Under the pieces are notes generated by a model. It did not search any database. It was given only the letters and a program-made list of their open reading frames with translations, and was not told where the DNA came from. Positions 39,962-64,000 of a DNA stretch of 64,000 nucleotides are shown one piece after another. The stretch's first letter is position 1; every line of letters starts with the position of its first letter. This stretch comes from Bdellovibrionales bacterium CG10_big_fil_rev_8_21_14_0_10_45_34 (GTDB lineage: Bacteria > Bdellovibrionota > Bdellovibrionia > Bdellovibrionales > 1-14-0-10-45-34): the NCBI GenBank assembly GCA_002778785.1, contig PEZS01000002.1:129501-193500 (forward strand), in the 5' to 3' direction. The position numbers were made by a program, and so were the translations under genes.

Positions 39962-40061
39962 GACTCCGCTCTCGATTGAATAAGGTGAAGAGACTAGCTT
40001 TACGCAACGCTTTTCAAACAGTTGATTCAAAAGCATGCTCTCATTGAATAGCTTTAGGAAA

Positions 40062-40091
40062 AGGCTCTTAATAAAGTAGCTTCAAGAGCCT
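40062..40091 (-). terminator. Hairpin between convergent genes
   Basis: AGGCTCTT (40062-40069) pairs with AAGAGCCT (40084-40091) around a 14-base loop. On the minus strand it is followed by TTTT, consistent with termination of the gene at 40100. Confidence 0.5.
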
Positions 40092-40099
40092 GCTCTCGA

Positions 40100-40660
40100 C
40101 TAGTCTAAACTTTTGATAAATGATTGCGGAGTGTATCCCTCTGGAAGCTTAGCGAAGGTGAATGAAATCAGGAGCCCCGAATTACCGGCATCCGCAAAAG
40201 AGTCAAAGTTCCACAGGAAATCTATATTTAAAACTAAATCTTCCTTTTTGAGCGGAATAGTCGTTTGGCGATCTTCTAACATTGTTAAATGGAAGTCAGA
40301 GGTACCCCACCCAGTACCGATATAGTTACCACTTCGAGCAACGGTAAGTTGTGTATTTCCGTACTGACCCGTATTTGCTGCCACCAAATCGTTGTATATG
40401 CGATCCCTTTCGATGGAACCCCAAAGTGAGTCGATTTCCTCCGCCAAAAAAGTCTCTGTGCTTCTGCGCTCGTGGAAATGCTTTGAAGCGAAATCACCTT
40501 TTTCAACTGACTCGAAGTTCGGATAGCCCGCTTCTTTCATCGAGGAGAACCTACGGTTACAAGCCGGGTTAATCTCAAAACACGTTCTTGTTATTTTGTT
40601 GTGTAGGTCTATGTGTGCTTTCACTGAAGGGCCCACAAGCGGGGCAAATGTTCTTCGCAT
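40100..40660 (-). CDS. Hypothetical protein, 5' end uncertain or truncated
   Basis: The 186-residue frame from ATG 40660 matches no family I recognise. The same frame stays open upstream to 40819 and reads like protein (for example HRVWLTDSSGILKVVIGI), but no start codon other than CTG is found there and a stop follows at 40820. The gene may therefore have lost its 5' end, or have a frameshift. The C-terminal part alternates hydrophobic and polar residues (beta-rich). It is downstream of the DUF366 gene on the same strand, about 290 bases away. Confidence 0.4.
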   Translation of the reverse strand: MRRTFAPLVGPSVKAHIDLHNKITRTCFEINPACNRRFSSMKEAGYPNFESVEKGDFASKHFHERRSTETFLAEEIDSLWGSIERDRIYNDLVAANTGQYGNTQLTVARSGNYIGTGWGTSDFHLTMLEDRQTTIPLKKEDLVLNIDFLWNFDSFADAGNSGLLISFTFAKLPEGYTPQSFIKSLD

Positions 40661-40950
40661 TTGATCAATGTCATTGATACCGATTACAACTTTAAGAATC
40701 CCCGATGAATCAGTTAGCCAAACTCTATGGGGAGTCCCTGCACTATCCAGTCGTACCTTGTGTGAAAATTTTCCAAAAATAAAAAGCGCTCGGCTACGCG
40801 TCCGTAGTCTAATAGAAAATCAATTTCTCGGATATACATTTAAATTTCTTGCAACAATTTTCAGCGAATTAGGGGTCGGCCTGGAAAGAGTTGAGCTGCA
40901 GCCTACCTGGGTATCAGAGCTCCCTATATTTAAGTTTGGAAGGTGCGCTA

Positions 40951-41532
40951 CTAGCGGGTTTTAGACCGGGCCTCGAGAATAGTTCCGTATTCATTGACGA
41001 AATTAGCCATGACCGCTTGACCAAATTTTTGGACATCAATTCGAAGCTCATTTAAAGAGCATGTGGGGACAGGCGTCCCCTCATTTGAAACATTAACTGC
41101 AAAATGAATGAGACACGAAGTGTTCGAAGCGGTGGCTACACTGATCGAAAGTTTCTTGTCGGTATTTGCTAAATAAAGATCATCCCCTTTTCGTATAAGC
41201 TTTACTTCTTTCTTACCTGCCGGCACGCTTGACTCTGCAGCTCTAGAATCAACGACATCTTTTACGATCGACGCCAATAATCGCTGCAGTGCTACCGCAC
41301 CTTTCAGGTCCCAATCAAAAACCTCTACGATGAAGTGAACCATCATCGAGCCTTCGATTTTGGATTGACTGATAACATCTTCAAGATCTTTCATGTTTTC
41401 AAAAGAAATCGCACAGGGTCCTTGCCACGAAACAATAGAGTCGCCAACCAGTCCGTGCTTTTGGTACGCAAATCTTGGCGCGAGCTGAGTTCCGTCGTAG
41501 GAAACAATTTCTTCACTCCAACTTGCCTTCAC
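40951..41532 (-). CDS. DUF366-family protein beside queC
   Basis: The 193-residue protein follows the DUF366 pattern: YDGTQLAPRF, DSIVSWQGPCAIS, LEDVISQSKIEGSMMVHFIVE, QRLLASIVKDVV, RKGDDLYLANTDKKLSISVAT and GTPVPTCSLNELRID. The function is unproven. Members often sit next to queuosine or 7-deazaguanine genes, as here, 12 bases after queC. A role in 7-deazaguanine metabolism or in fidelity of that pathway is inferred. GTG 41532 is the start, with AGAGGTG 5 bases upstream. Confidence 0.82.
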   Translation of the reverse strand: MKASWSEEIVSYDGTQLAPRFAYQKHGLVGDSIVSWQGPCAISFENMKDLEDVISQSKIEGSMMVHFIVEVFDWDLKGAVALQRLLASIVKDVVDSRAAESSVPAGKKEVKLIRKGDDLYLANTDKKLSISVATASNTSCLIHFAVNVSNEGTPVPTCSLNELRIDVQKFGQAVMANFVNEYGTILEARSKTR

Positions 41533-41544
41533 CGAACACCTCTT

Positions 41545-42207
41545 TTAAGTAGAACTAGCCATCTTTGCTCTCAAAAATCTCTGACAACTTTCACAAACTC
41601 CACAGAGCTCGTCATTTGATTCGTAACATGGCCAAATATTATTGATGTCGATCCCCAATTCAAGCGCACGCGACAGAATTTGAGTTTTATCCATTTCAAT
41701 TGTCCAGCACTGTATTGTGGGTTGGGTCTGAGTTGAGAGCTCTAAGAACTGATTGGAAGCATTTACAAACTCGCCGGAATTGTCAGAAAAGGTCGCAGCC
41801 TCCTCTTTGTTCCATCCGACAACAATCCATCCTGCCCCCATTGCCTCTGCGAAACTTGCTGCAATATTGATAAAAACCCCATTGCGATTTGGTACCCAAA
41901 CTGCCTTAGCGGATTCCGCTGTGGCCAAATGATTTTCAAGATCAACGGAAGTTGGTAGCGGAGCCGAACGATTGACCAATGCACTCGTCGTGATCCGACT
42001 GAGCCATTCAAGTTCAATGATCTGATGGGGCACATTCAGTTGCTCGCAAAAGTAGCTTGCCGCGGCACACTCTTTACGAAAGCTTCGTTGACCATAGTCA
42101 AAAGTTAAAGCCAATACGACTTTAGAGCACCTAAAGGCTTCGTAAAGATTAACAACAGAATCTAAACCGCCCGAAAGTGTTATGATCGAAAGATTTGAAT
42201 GCGCCAA
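41545..42207 (-). CDS. queC: 7-cyano-7-deazaguanine synthase QueC
   Basis: The 220-residue enzyme has the PP-loop LSGGLDSVVNLYEA, ALTFDYGQRSFRKE, WVPNRNGVFINIAASFAEAMG, and a C-terminal zinc site CYESNDELCGVCESCQRF (four Cys). QueC converts 7-carboxy-7-deazaguanine to preQ0 with ATP and ammonia. It lies between yajC and the DUF366 gene in a run with tgt and queA, while QueD, QueE and QueF are not in the window. Confidence 0.93.
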   Translation of the reverse strand: MAHSNLSIITLSGGLDSVVNLYEAFRCSKVVLALTFDYGQRSFRKECAAASYFCEQLNVPHQIIELEWLSRITTSALVNRSAPLPTSVDLENHLATAESAKAVWVPNRNGVFINIAASFAEAMGAGWIVVGWNKEEAATFSDNSGEFVNASNQFLELSTQTQPTIQCWTIEMDKTQILSRALELGIDINNIWPCYESNDELCGVCESCQRFLRAKMASST

Positions 42208-42219
42208 GATATAGAGCTT

Positions 42220-42531
42220 TTAAGCCGGCTGATCTTTTACTTGTCCAGCGATTTGGGTTCTTAAAATCTTCACCCTAACATCAGTCGCTATTTCGAGAGT
42301 TATGTATTTGTCTGTGAGGCCCTCTACCCGGCCCAAAATTCCGCTCACAGTTATTACCTGATCTCCGCGCTTTAGCGCCTCTTGCATCTTCGCCTGTTCT
42401 TTGCGGAACTTGCTCTGAGGTCTGATCATAAAGAAGTAAATAACTCCGAATAATAGGACCATCGGAAGTAAAGATTCTAACATCGACGGTTGTTGGGGAG
42501 TCGATTGTGCCCACGCATATGACCAAAACAT
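42220..42531 (-). CDS. yajC: Sec translocase accessory subunit YajC
   Basis: The 103-residue protein has one transmembrane helix (LLPMVLLFGVIYFFMIRPQSK) followed by KMQEALKRGDQVITVSGILGRV, the YajC signature. YajC associates with SecD-SecF in the inner membrane. The usual order queA-tgt-yajC-secD-secF is broken here: secD and secF are at 53-56 kb, and queC and DUF366 take their place. Confidence 0.93.
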   Translation of the reverse strand: MFWSYAWAQSTPQQPSMLESLLPMVLLFGVIYFFMIRPQSKFRKEQAKMQEALKRGDQVITVSGILGRVEGLTDKYITLEIATDVRVKILRTQIAGQVKDQPA

Positions 42532-42702
42532 ATTTACCTCACTCTTGCTTACTGGGTGATACCAAAAACAGCCAACAGGGGCAATGCTTATATGTCATTT
42601 GACCCGGTTCAAACCTCCTTAGGGCGAACTTAAACAGTCTGCTCAAGCAAGGGTTAGGGCAAAAATCGATCGCCCGGCTGCCTCAGCGTTTCAATCCGTC
42701 AA

Positions 42703-43821
42703 TTAGTTGGAACTGGTGTAAGTTGCTAGAAATTGATTTCTGAAGCTCGTCCACTTGCCCTCACAGATAGCAACTCTGGCCCGCGCCATAAGATCAAGAT
42801 AAAAGTGGAGGTTGTGGATCGTATTAAGCCGGGCCGATAGTATCTCCCCCGCCATAAACAAATGTCGCAAGTACGCCTTTGAATAATTTTTGGCCGTATA
42901 GGAATCGCTGAGTTCATCAATAGAAGACTCATCTTCTCGGAATTCCTCTCGTTTGATGCTGATCTTGCCCTTTGAGGTAAACAAAGTGCCATTTCGAGCC
43001 ACTCGCGTAGGCAGAACACAATCAAACATGTCGATGCCCGCATCTATAGCTCGAATCAGATCCAGGGGCGTTCCAACTCCCATCAAATATCTTGGCTTAT
43101 CCTGCGGTAAAAGCGGAGCCAGCTCCGGCAGCATCTGATGCATTTCTTCGATGGGCTCGCCAACACTGAAACCACCCAATGCATAACCCGGCAAATTCTG
43201 CGAGCAAACCTGCTCGATGCTTTCTTTACGTAAATTGTAATCGAGCCCACCTTGCGCGATTCCGAATAAAAGGTGTTTGCTATGATCGACATGCTTTACA
43301 CACCGATCTAGCCAACGATGTGTTCTATCAACGGCATCCTTAAGTGCGCTTTTCTCACAGGGGTGCGGCGGACATTCATCAAACGCCATGATAATATCTG
43401 AGCCTAGCGCCATCTGGATATCCATGCTTTTTTCTGGCCCTATAAAATGCTGCCGACCATCGAGATGACTTTTAAAAGTAACGCCCTCTTCGTCGATCTT
43501 TCGCAGTTGGCTTAAGGAGAATACTTGAAAGCCACCACTGTCTGTGAGGATCGGGTCTGGCCAATTCATAAATTTGTGAAGGCCGCCCAACTTCTTTATC
43601 GTGTCTTCACCCGGTCTGAGGTGAAGGTGATAAGTGTTACCCAATATTATTTGAGAACCTATTTGCTTTAATTCTTCTGGAAGCATGCCTTTAACAGTGG
43701 CTTTTGTTCCTACTGGCATAAAGACAGGTGTTTTGATTTCACCCCGAAGGGTATGAAGTTTACCGGCGCGAGCATTCGATCCCGCTGCACGGGCCTCAAC
43801 CTGAAAAGAACCAAAACTCAT
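42703..43821 (-). CDS. tgt: tRNA-guanine transglycosylase Tgt lacking the zinc cysteines
   Basis: This 372-residue TIM-barrel enzyme exchanges G34 of target tRNAs for preQ1. It keeps the general acid/base region LTDSGGFQVFSL, GIAQGGLD, GGFSVGEP and the nucleophile region DCVLPTRVARNGTLFT. The zinc-binding segment, normally CxCxxC followed by TIHNLHYY, reads LSDSYTAKNYS. All three cysteines are replaced by Ser, Ser and Ala, while the fourth ligand His in TIHNLHFY is kept. The domain must be stabilised another way, or the enzyme has diverged. It is 7 bases downstream of queA. Confidence 0.92.
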   Translation of the reverse strand: MSFGSFQVEARAAGSNARAGKLHTLRGEIKTPVFMPVGTKATVKGMLPEELKQIGSQIILGNTYHLHLRPGEDTIKKLGGLHKFMNWPDPILTDSGGFQVFSLSQLRKIDEEGVTFKSHLDGRQHFIGPEKSMDIQMALGSDIIMAFDECPPHPCEKSALKDAVDRTHRWLDRCVKHVDHSKHLLFGIAQGGLDYNLRKESIEQVCSQNLPGYALGGFSVGEPIEEMHQMLPELAPLLPQDKPRYLMGVGTPLDLIRAIDAGIDMFDCVLPTRVARNGTLFTSKGKISIKREEFREDESSIDELSDSYTAKNYSKAYLRHLFMAGEILSARLNTIHNLHFYLDLMARARVAICEGKWTSFRNQFLATYTSSN

Positions 43822-43828
43822 AGTGTTG

Positions 43829-44869
43829 TCACCGCTTGCATCGCCATACCGTCATATCACCATAGCTAAAAAGTCGAAATTTTCTTTCTATCGCCCAACT
43901 GTAGGCTGCCAAGGTGTCTTTGTGCCCTGCAAAGGAGCAAACGAGCGCCAACAAAGTGCTTTTGGGTTGATGAAAGTTTGTAACAAGATAATCAGCGGTT
44001 TCAAAGTTATAATTCCCATAGATAAACAAATCACTACTTCCGCGAAATGCTGTTTCAGACTCTATCAGCATCCCCTTTGCGACAGACTCCAGGGATCGCA
44101 GCACAGTTGTTCCTATTGCCCAAACTTTACCCCCCTCTTCTTTGCATCTGCTCAAGGCGGACCACGTATCCTTAGGAACTTCAATTTCTTCTGAGTGCAT
44201 AATGTGCTCAGTAAGATTGCCGGCGGTGACTGGTAAGAAAGTTCCTAGCCCCACGTGCAACGTTACAGTTTTCAGCAATGCTCCCGTATTTTTAATGGTC
44301 TCTAAGTGATGGGGTTTAAAATGCAAACTGGCTGTAGGGGCCGCCTGACTTCCTGGAACCTTGGCAAAAATAGTCTGGTACCAGTTCTCATCATCATCTA
44401 GACAATGGCGCGATGATCTTACTTGTTGAATGTAAGGGGGCAGCGGCATTTCACCATTCCTGTAGAAATAATCTTCATCTATTGGCTGGCTGAGTTTCAA
44501 TACTTGAGGCACTCCCTTGGCTACAATCTCTGCTGTCAGGTCACCGGTAAGATAGAGAACCTCGTCTTTCTTTAAACGCGAACTTGGGCACAAAACCTCC
44601 CAAAGAAGACTTTCTTTACTGCGAACAAAAAGTATCTCGAACTCTTCGCCATTATTTCTTTTTGCAAAGATTCGTCTCTTAGAAACCTTGGTATCGTTTA
44701 CGACCACGACATCTCTTGCCGAAATCTTGGCTAAGAGCGACGACATATCGATTTCACATGGGGCCGCATCGTCGACCCACATAATGCGCGAGGGCTTATG
44801 TGGCTCGGTGGCGATGAGCTCCTGCGGGTAGGAAAAATCAAGTTCCGAAGTCTTAATTGCGAAACTCAG
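43829..44869 (-). CDS. queA: S-adenosylmethionine:tRNA ribosyltransferase-isomerase QueA, non-standard start
   Basis: QueA builds epoxyqueuosine on tRNA from SAM. The body is intact: VVVVNDTKVSKRRIFAKR, TASLHFKPHHL, TLHVGLGTFLPV, MHSEEIEVP, VWAIGTTVLRSLES, NFHQPKSTLLALVCSFAG. ATG 44782 would cut off the conserved N-terminus. Upstream codons in frame read SELDFSYPQELIATEPHKPSR, the expected QueA start, yet contain no ATG, GTG or TTG. Only CTG at 44869 or ATT at 44857 can start it. The frame continues directly from the slipin gene, separated by its single TGA at 44876-44878, so coupling or low-level readthrough is possible. The coordinates use CTG. Confidence 0.85.
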   Translation of the reverse strand: MSFAIKTSELDFSYPQELIATEPHKPSRIMWVDDAAPCEIDMSSLLAKISARDVVVVNDTKVSKRRIFAKRNNGEEFEILFVRSKESLLWEVLCPSSRLKKDEVLYLTGDLTAEIVAKGVPQVLKLSQPIDEDYFYRNGEMPLPPYIQQVRSSRHCLDDDENWYQTIFAKVPGSQAAPTASLHFKPHHLETIKNTGALLKTVTLHVGLGTFLPVTAGNLTEHIMHSEEIEVPKDTWSALSRCKEEGGKVWAIGTTVLRSLESVAKGMLIESETAFRGSSDLFIYGNYNFETADYLVTNFHQPKSTLLALVCSFAGHKDTLAAYSWAIERKFRLFSYGDMTVWRCKR

Positions 44870-44875
44870 ATTTGA

Positions 44876-45622
44876 TCAAGTTTTCTTTTCAACAAATGGC
44901 TTTAGCATATCGATAGGTAGCGGAAAGACAATAAGAGTACTCTTATCATTCGCCACTTCTGTCATTGCTTGCAAATAAGCCAATTGTAAAGCTGACGGCG
45001 ACGAAGCCAGCATTTTTGATGCTTCGGCAAGTCGGCTAGATCTTTGAACTTCACCTTCGGCGCTGATCACTTTAGCTCTTCGAATTCTTTCGGCTTCAGC
45101 CTCTCTCGCCATGGCTTTTTGCATGGATTCAGGCAGATCAATTTGTTTGACCTCTACCATGCTAATTTTAATTCCCCACGGCTCTGTTTGGTTGTCCAAA
45201 ATTGATTGCAATCGTTGATTGATTTCATCGCGATTGCTCAACATTTCGTCCAAGGGAACCTGGCCCAAAACAGATCGTAGTGTGGTTTGAGCAAGCTGAC
45301 TTGTACCAAAATAATAATCTTCGATTTGAAGTATTGCTTTAGCCGCGTCCACAACTCTAAAGTAAACGACTGCATTCACTTTCACGCTCACGTTATCTTT
45401 AGTAATAACATCCTGAGGCTGAACATCCATTGTGATGGTTCGCATATCGACTCGAATCATGCGATCAACACCCGGAATAAGAATGATTACCCCTGGACCT
45501 TTTAATCCAATGTACTTACCCAATCTGAGAACAACTGCGCGCTCGTACTGCGGCATAATTTTCAAAACGGAAGTGATAAACACAACACCCGCTGCAATAG
45601 CAACAAGAACTCCAATCGACAT
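44876..45622 (-). CDS. Slipin/stomatin-like SPFH-domain membrane protein
   Basis: The 248-residue protein has one N-terminal membrane helix ([18 protein letters not shown]), then the SPFH/band-7 domain ([43 protein letters not shown]) and a short helical region ([22 protein letters not shown]). This is the prokaryotic slipin layout. Slipins form membrane scaffolds and are partnered with NfeD, which lies directly upstream here (20 bases). Its stop is in frame with queA. Confidence 0.92.
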
Positions 45623-45642
45623 AATTACCTCCTTGGGGTTTC

Positions 45643-46965
45643 TTATACCCTTTTTACCCTTAGAACCAAGCCCGATTGTTCTATAATTTCAATTTCATCG
45701 TCTTTTTTAACAAGTTCACTCGATTCAAAAGCCCAAATCTCCCCTTCTATTTGCACTTGGCCCCGCATACCGGTTGGATCTACGAACCAAACCTTCAGTC
45801 TCCTCCCTACCATTGAGTCATAACTCAACTTAGGTGAAGACTTCTGAGCTTTTACCACAAGGTAGGCGACAGCGAGCATAATCCCCCCCGCAACAAGCGC
45901 TGTCGGAAGCACAATTTTTAGCATGGCAGCCCAACCTCCAGAGATCGAAGGATCAAACATATAAATGCCTCCAATGACAAATGAGACCAGACCTGCAACT
46001 CCTAAAATCCCGAAACTAGGCACAAAGGCCTCGGCCACCAAGAAGGCCAAACCGAGAACAATCAGGGCCACACCGCCCCACCACACTGCCAATTTTGAAA
46101 ACGACACTAGCGCCAAAATTAGACCGATGCCGCCGAGTACGCCAGGAACAATCGTTCCAGGATGTGTGATCTCAAAGTAAAGAAGGGCAAGGCTTCCCAT
46201 GAAGAGCAGGTAGGCAATTTGCGGGTCCGAGAAGAGACTTAAAAGATAATGTTTTAAGCTGCTTTCGAATTTAATGATTGTTCCGACAGTCACACTTTTT
46301 GTAGACCGATCCGTCATCACAACCTTTTTCCCCTTTGCCATTTCGAGAAACTGATTGATTGAGGCAGACACAAAGTCGAGACCACCTTCTTTGAGAGCGT
46401 CCTTTGCAGACACAGCTTTGGCTTCTGTGATGATGTCACGCCCGAACTTTTGACTCCTACCGCGAAGGGACGTCAAACCATCAAGCCAACTTGTCGTGTC
46501 GTTTATCATTTTCTTTCGGAGATCCTCCGACATCTCTTGCCCTGTTGCTAAGATGGGCGTGGCAGCTCCTAAATTGGTAGTCTCGAGTGCGCCGTTTACA
46601 TGACAAGCTTGTAGTATAATCGCACCTGCGCTACCCGCATGCGCCCCTTCAGGGGCGACAAGACACAATACCGGAAACTCAAAATTCAAAATGAGCTCCA
46701 CAATTTCTCTTGTCGAATCCAAAAGACCGCCAGGCGTATTCATTAAAAAAAGAACCGTCGAGCAATTCTTTTTTCGAACTTCGACAAAAACATCTTTCAC
46801 CAATTCAACTGTTGAAGGTCCGATCACACCACTCATTGATGCCTCAATCGTGCAACCGCTTGCCTCGGTCGCGGGGGGCTCTGCCGGCGCTTGCGCATTT
46901 AGAGAGAGCGGCAAAACAACTAGGGCCATCAAAAAAACTATCAATCCGTTTTTAAATCTCGTCAT
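45643..46965 (-). CDS. nfeD: NfeD membrane-bound serine protease (STOPP)
   Basis: The 440-residue protein has a signal peptide, then a ClpP-like domain with [15 protein letters not shown] and the nucleophile in [12 protein letters not shown] (Ser), and a Lys farther on. Four to five transmembrane helices follow (about 225-370), and a C-terminal OB-fold ([16 protein letters not shown]...[19 protein letters not shown]). Long-form NfeD cleaves hydrophobic C-termini of membrane proteins such as stomatin. The slipin gene is adjacent. It overlaps the preceding gene by 14 bases. Confidence 0.92.
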
Positions 46966-47659
46966 CTTTACTTTCCTTTTGAGAAGACAGAACTTTCTCT
47001 CGCTTGGCGGCTTTCAACTGATTTATTTTTGGTTTCAGAATCTTTAAATCATTCCAGACTTGAGCTTTGCGATCAGGATTTATCAGCAAGTCTTCTATGG
47101 CTTCCGTGACTGTCCAGCTCAACTGAGACGTCAACTTAGCATTCAAACCTGGAGTATGGGAGCTTTCTATAAGACTTTGCTGAAAGGCCCTTGAATTTCG
47201 AACTCCGAACGAGATGCCTAGAAACTTTTCATCACTTTTGGATAAAAAATCTGAAAGCTGTTTGTCGGACCCTGATAGGACGTCTTCATCAGTTAGCCCG
47301 ATGGCGCCGAGAATTTTATTATAAAGCTCAAAGGCAAGCGCGTTGCTCGGAAGTGGCGCCCCTAGGATTACGGCACAAATCGCTCTTTTTGTGTTTTGCG
47401 TATTAGTTTTCTCTTCGTAGCTCGTTGCTGTTACCAAGGGGGCGCTTTCAGAAAGGGCTGCAGAAGGTTCCGTTAACTCCGAAACCCTCACTTCTTTTTG
47501 TTGAAGATGCAGAGTTTTCTGAGCACGGTTAGCCGTTGCAGACGCAGATTCCGGTAAAACGAGGTAATCGATTCCGAAAACTTCTTTTAGATACACAAGC
47601 CAGTTGTGTGCCGGCTGATTCTCAACTGATTGGTTCTCTGGATTCGACTGAGTCTGCAA
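46952..47659 (-). CDS. Hypothetical protein upstream of nfeD
   Basis: About 235 residues, soluble, no signal or membrane segment, with a charged, helical C-terminus (KINQLKAAKREKVLSSQKE). No family is recognised. The frame opens with TTG codons: TTG 47659 has GGGAG 5 bases upstream and is preferred over TTG 47683. The end overlaps nfeD by 14 bases, so the two are translated together. The intergenic space to 47816 should hold divergent promoters. Confidence 0.5.
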   Translation of the reverse strand: MQTQSNPENQSVENQPAHNWLVYLKEVFGIDYLVLPESASATANRAQKTLHLQQKEVRVSELTEPSAALSESAPLVTATSYEEKTNTQNTKRAICAVILGAPLPSNALAFELYNKILGAIGLTDEDVLSGSDKQLSDFLSKSDEKFLGISFGVRNSRAFQQSLIESSHTPGLNAKLTSQLSWTVTEAIEDLLINPDRKAQVWNDLKILKPKINQLKAAKREKVLSSQKESKDDEI

Positions 47660-47815
47660 GAAATCTCCCAACCTACCAGGCAACTCAAGCTCACTAGCAG
47701 AAAACCTAGCCCGCTTTTTAAAGGACGATTGTCCCCGTCAATTGGTCTTGATTTTATCCTTATGTCTCAATTTGAATCAAAAGTCATCCGAATCAATCAT
47801 CAAGGAGGCTGTGCC

Positions 47816-48049
47816 ATGGAAAAAAACCGTTTAAAATTGAATAGCCAATCTGAATGGAGTGAGCACATTGACCTGGACTTTCTGAGCATGGACCAAATTG
47901 CAGAAAATCCTTTGATTCACTGTGGTCTGTGTGGTTCGAACCTCAAATTCAGTCATGCAATTGATTATGCGGTGCTGAGTATCGAGGAGAAGGCCCACTG
48001 CCCTTCTTGCGGCATGACCCAAAAGCAAACGCTGCACGGAATACATTAG
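47816..48049 (+). CDS. Small zinc-ribbon protein
   Basis: This 77-residue protein has HCGLCGSNLKF and HCPSCGMTQKQ, two CxxC pairs about 28 residues apart that can bind one zinc ion. ATG 47816 has a strong AAGGAGG 7 bases upstream. The frame is open for longer upstream, but only this start has a proper ribosome binding site. The function is unknown; two-knuckle proteins of this size are often RNA- or protein-binding. Confidence 0.72.
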   Translation: MEKNRLKLNSQSEWSEHIDLDFLSMDQIAENPLIHCGLCGSNLKFSHAIDYAVLSIEEKAHCPSCGMTQKQTLHGIH

Positions 48050-63806: not shown

Positions 63807-64000
63807 TTAAATTTTTGCCGGTGTTTGTCCGGGTCCTTGTCCGGGTCCTTGTCCGGGCCCCTGACCGGGTCCTCCAGGACACTGCCCCGGATGCTGATCA
63901 GGATCGCATGGCGGAGGCGTTGGAGTCGGCGTTGGAGTCGGCGTTGGAGTCGGCGTTGGAGTCGGCGTTGGAGTCGGCGTTGGAGTCGGCGTTGGAGTCG
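63807..64000 (-). CDS. Protein with Thr-Pro repeat tail, C-terminal part (5' end outside window)
   Basis: The minus-strand frame is open from the right edge to a TAA at 63807-63809. It reads as Thr-Pro dipeptides (at least 14), then PPPCDPDQHPGQCPGG, then PGQG repeats and TPAKI. Such Pro-rich tails are typical of surface or secreted proteins. The N-terminal part is beyond the window and nothing can be said of its function. Confidence 0.75.
   Translation of the reverse strand, partial: TPTPTPTPTPTPTPTPTPTPTPTPTPTPPPCDPDQHPGQCPGGPGQGPGQGPGQGPGQTPAKI
63828..63866. repeat. 12-base tandem repeat encoding Pro-Gly-Gln-Gly
   Basis: About three units of GTCCGGGTCCTT-type sequence, the last degenerate, encode repeated PGQG in the minus-strand protein. 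Confidence 0.75.
63916..63999. repeat. Perfect 12-base tandem repeat, seven copies to the window edge
   Basis: GGCGTTGGAGTC is repeated exactly seven times and continues past the window end. It encodes (Thr-Pro)n on the minus strand. Exact copies suggest recent expansion. Confidence 0.95.

Follow-up and report, generated by a model that had tools for sequence, protein, structure and literature searches.

A queA gene without a canonical start codon in a Bdellovibrio-like bacterium probably begins at AUU

We conclude that the queA gene of a Bdellovibrio-like bacterium is probably a functional gene that starts at an AUU codon (44857-44855, minus strand), one base off the AUG of its relatives. 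A canonical start is absent, the AUU lies in the initiator column of the family, and the encoded protein is intact and conserved. The gene was found in a window of 64,000 nucleotides, the whole stretch of DNA analysed, where it is part of a single run on the minus strand with the order nfeD-slipin-queA-tgt-yajC-queC:

45643..46965, minus strand: gene for an NfeD-type membrane protease partner, upstream of slipin in this run (PF24961, E 6.3e-22; PF01957)
44876..45622, minus strand: slipin / Band 7 (SPFH) gene (PF01145, E 8.8e-41), with its stop TGA at 44878-44876
43829..44857, minus strand: queA, 342 aa counted from ATT (PF02547, TIGR00113)
42703..43821, minus strand: tgt (TIGR00430, 516.6 bits), directly 3' of queA after a 7-nt gap
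42220..42531, minus strand: yajC (TIGR00739, 85.7 bits)
41545..42207, minus strand: queC (TIGR00364, 178.8 bits)

Because queA, tgt, and queC are clustered and queG is found elsewhere in the same genome, outside this run, the queuosine pathway is present. Immediately downstream of queC, a 193-aa ORF (40951-41532, minus strand) had no NCBIfam match and may be linked to the queuosine genes. At the end of the window (63825-64000) there are two 12-bp tandem arrays, one with four copies of TTGTCCGGGTCC and one with seven perfect copies of GGCGTTGGAGTC; the latter reaches the window end and runs on into masked sequence.

The product of queA is the tRNA preQ1(34) S-adenosylmethionine ribosyltransferase-isomerase. 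It matched PF02547 with an E value of 1.3e-93 and 314 bits (cut-off 25) and TIGR00113 with 285.3 bits, which exceeds the cut-off of 267.45; its score for NF001140 was slightly under threshold (317.2 vs 324). The ORF contains no stop or frameshift, and the protein retains 71 of the 72 columns that have at least 95% identity in relatives. There is no second queA copy in the whole 3.06-Mb genome.

The initial annotation had stated that queA has no ATG, GTG, or TTG start, and codon reading bore this out. On the minus strand, the end of slipin passes into the linker as ACT TGA (44878-44876) TCA AAT CTG (44869-44867) AGT TTC GCA ATT (44857-44855), followed by AAG ACT TCG GAA CTT GAT TTT TCC TAC CCG CAG GAG; after GAG the queA frame continues with CTC ATC GCC ACC GAG CCA and reaches its first ATG at 44782-44780. 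From the slipin TGA to 44782 this frame contains no ATG, GTG, or TTG. The conserved QueA segment LDFSYPQELIATEP lies upstream of 44782, so that, as had also been claimed, the conserved N-terminus precedes the first ATG. Two codons, CTG and ATT, qualify as plausible near-cognate starts in the stretch from the TGA to the conserved N-terminus, and no others do, in agreement with the two options named at the outset. The AAG beside the ATT is likewise one base off ATG; we know of no case in which AAG is a usable start codon. The elements considered were the following:

44855..44857, minus strand: ATT, proposed queA start (MKTSELDFSYPQELIATEP...), in the Met1 column of Thermotoga maritima QueA and the start column of relatives
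44865..44867, minus strand: GAG, a weak triplet of Shine-Dalgarno type, with a spacer of 7 nt to the ATT
44867..44869, minus strand: CTG, alternative start, which would prepend MSFA to the ATT-encoded Ile
44780..44782, minus strand: first in-frame ATG, codon 26 counted from the ATT, within the conserved N-terminus; an unlikely start

Because the ATG at 44782 is the first canonical start, it is the one that standard gene callers would choose, and QueA made from it would be N-terminally truncated. The 25 residues dropped in this way include P11 (100% of relatives), L14 (97%), A16 (94%), and R24 (99%), and the same segment is present in solved QueA proteins. We therefore regard a truncated QueA as very unlikely.

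To place the start, queA genes were gathered from the same order and their 5' ends read, giving 118 relatives, or 119 genes with our own; the relatives compared belong to other families of the order. A start codon stood exactly in the ATT column in 98 of the 118, and in 117 of the 119 genes (own included) a canonical start lay no further from it than −7 to +2 codons: ATG in 97, GTG in 18, and TTG in 2. When aligned with T. maritima QueA (1vky), our protein has its ATT-encoded residue opposite residue 13 of 1vky, the Met just past the tag. The N-termini of relatives include MKTSDL and VKTSEL, which resemble the KTSEL that follows the ATT here. Two points count against the AUU start. By our own estimate from codon counts, a random codon would be near-cognate with a chance of ~0.07-0.15, which is the chance of the column match taken alone. 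The AUU is also not conserved among these relatives, 117 of the 118 using ATG, GTG, or TTG. The search for queA came up empty in some genomes of the order, and a scan of genome contigs yielded one distant Spirochaetia locus only.

Just 2 of the 119 genes thus lacked a canonical start, our own and that of genome G075 (locus L095). The latter reads GTC CTG AAT ATC after a TAA (locus position ~1498-1515), with the CTG in the start column, a GAGG 6 nt before it (anti-Shine-Dalgarno pairing −7.2 kcal/mol), and an overlapping upstream ORF. A congeneric species (L045) has the ATG of its queA two codons ahead of the column.

Translation of our gene could instead begin at the CTG, which is near-cognate and, being 6 nt past the slipin TGA, well positioned for re-initiation; 6 of 117 relatives start 4-7 codons upstream of the column, and G075 apparently uses CTG, albeit in the exact column. 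Against the resulting MSFA extension are the 98 of 117 canonical starts located exactly in the ATT column and a predicted anti-Shine-Dalgarno pairing of just −0.6 kcal/mol. We consider a CUG start improbable, and a weaker alternative than AUU.

The same comparison bears on the proposal, made from the frame shared by slipin and queA, that readthrough of the slipin TGA produces a slipin-QueA fusion. A common frame is a 1-in-3 chance event and carries no weight. Comparison of this junction in relatives had been suggested as a check; slipin was near queA in three relatives' loci only and adjoined it in none of the loci examined, so there is no conserved slipin-queA junction, and the fusion is left unsupported. 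The 18-nt linker is unconserved, QueA homologues, including solved proteins, begin at the ATT column, and the junction shows no unusual fold or RNA family. TGA readthrough may occur at background level, but we saw no sign of a role for it, and a functional fusion seems to us scarcely credible. Because the AUU stands where relatives have AUG or GUG, a rare weak start (or an isolated sequence error) is the probable explanation rather than a fusion. Among the options first listed, the rare start was thus retained, narrowed to ATT with CTG second, and the fusion was dropped.

Predicted anti-Shine-Dalgarno pairing for the ATT was −2.2 kcal/mol, compared with a genome median of −4.65; this value equals or beats that of about one-third of sampled genes, for which the start choices are approximate. 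The slipin gene has a strong Shine-Dalgarno sequence, aaggaggtaattATG (−12.7 kcal/mol), and its TGA is 18 nt from the ATT. No promoter or terminator pattern was found between slipin and queA, no unusual RNA fold was found at their junction (z 0.68), and there were no Rfam matches in 40000-48000. With no promoter pattern, terminator pattern, or unusual fold before queA, coupling to slipin termination would be the natural supply of ribosomes, and initiation of queA is probably coupled to slipin translation. Re-initiation, another of the options in the initial annotation, is accordingly plausible given the 18-nt gap and the weak Shine-Dalgarno. Under the AUU reading, fMet-tRNA would initiate at the queA AUU with low efficiency, probably assisted by ribosomes fresh from slipin termination 18 nt upstream, and the expected outcome would be a low level of QueA that depends on IF3.

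To learn how unusual this start is, we surveyed 1.65 Mb of the 3.06-Mb genome alongside 0.8 Mb of the distant relative G033. Among ~190-200 orthologues in the 1.65 Mb, queA was the sole intact gene whose conserved N-terminus lies ahead of all canonical starts. The genes trpS, sdhB, tgt, and one for a nucleotidyltransferase were flagged as having odd starts and dismissed, an ATG being nearby in each; other flagged items were antisense matches. A dinB remnant was dismissed as a rare start because the gene is broken. This dinB-like ORF (G000:C1, ~46000-47100, minus strand), a broken DNA polymerase IV gene, lacks the catalytic N-terminal part and is interrupted a second time near the C-terminal third. 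When coding sequence was sought ab initio ahead of the first start, most of what came up was apparent frameshifts or noise. In one HerA-like ORF, so named from a look at its sequence (G000:C11, ~407816), the coding signal extends 5' of the first canonical start; the probable cause is a frameshift or a disrupted gene.

The genome's infC has an in-frame ATG following AGGAGG, which indicates that AUU is not a genome-wide habit as far as the genome was read. We found no unusual initiator tRNA: the half of the genome that was read contains two tRNA-Met genes, both with a CAT anticodon.

Two explanations would remove the need for a working AUU start. In the first, a possibility already raised in the initial annotation, the ATT is an assembly base error that hides an ATG, and there is nothing special about queA. 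A single substitution turns the ATT into the start of most relatives, and the Shine-Dalgarno is weak for a working non-canonical start. However, assembly defects are few: the dinB remnant was the one real split gene among 191 orthologues, no other starts were lost, and the assembly looks sound. We judge a base error unlikely, though it deserves to be kept in mind. In the second, a real and recent mutation has cut or ended QueA expression, leaving an incipient pseudogene. QueA is dispensable in many bacteria, and the weak Shine-Dalgarno, the lack of ATT in relatives, and the genomes of the order with no queA match all fit with start loss; the wholly intact ORF, the 71 of 72 conserved residues, and the retention of tgt, queC, and queG argue against it, and we give it a small chance. 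Together, a single-base error and a recent start-loss mutation account for about a quarter of the probability.

AUU starts have been documented in infC of E. coli (PMC5472188) and, by the account given in PMC13009471, in E. coli pcnB (Binns and Masters 2002). In S. aureus, cvfC1 starts at AUU, infC and ccpN start at AUA, and citZ does so in one lineage; in poor medium, reporters with such starts reached ~10% of the level obtained with AUG (PMC13009471). Starts of the AUU/AUA type are repressed by IF3 (PMC5472188, PMC13009471), and the queA AUU would, if used, be sensitive to it.

Both E. coli infC and our queA have an AUU initiator on a chromosomal housekeeping gene; in infC the codon serves autoregulation by IF3, whereas here the gene is queA and the host's infC has an ATG. 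The pcnB AUU, as cited there, limits an RNA-processing enzyme, an effect demonstrated experimentally for that gene and one that we infer for queA. The S. aureus genes cvfC1 (AUU), ccpN, and citZ (AUA) are ordinary genes, like queA, and the queA AUU is possibly lineage-limited, as is the citZ AUA. The cvfC1, ccpN, and infC sites have strong extended Shine-Dalgarno sequences and were ribosome-profiled (PMC13009471), and the weak pairing at queA counts against its AUU in this respect; such a compensating Shine-Dalgarno, seen at the S. aureus sites and not strictly required, was not found at the queA ATT. In Streptomyces sigR, which starts at GTC, annotation missed a non-canonical start, as here, but the codon is another one and the gene encodes a regulatory sigma factor (PMC5472188). 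We conclude that queA probably adds one more case to a phenomenon already described, the AUU start.

A more speculative extension is that queA is under translational control, with the AUU tied to the termination of slipin translation, whereby tRNA queuosine would track IF3 or the translation of membrane-stress genes, and with the CTG-start queA of G075 as an independent parallel; we think this improbable. Documented bacterial AUU-start genes are few. If the ATT is an error, one base of a draft genome mimics unusual biology. Standard gene callers would trim QueA to 44782 and lose conserved residues. If the AUU start is true, a tRNA-modification enzyme joins the short list of AUU-start genes, and comparison of N-terminal columns across relatives can reveal such starts.
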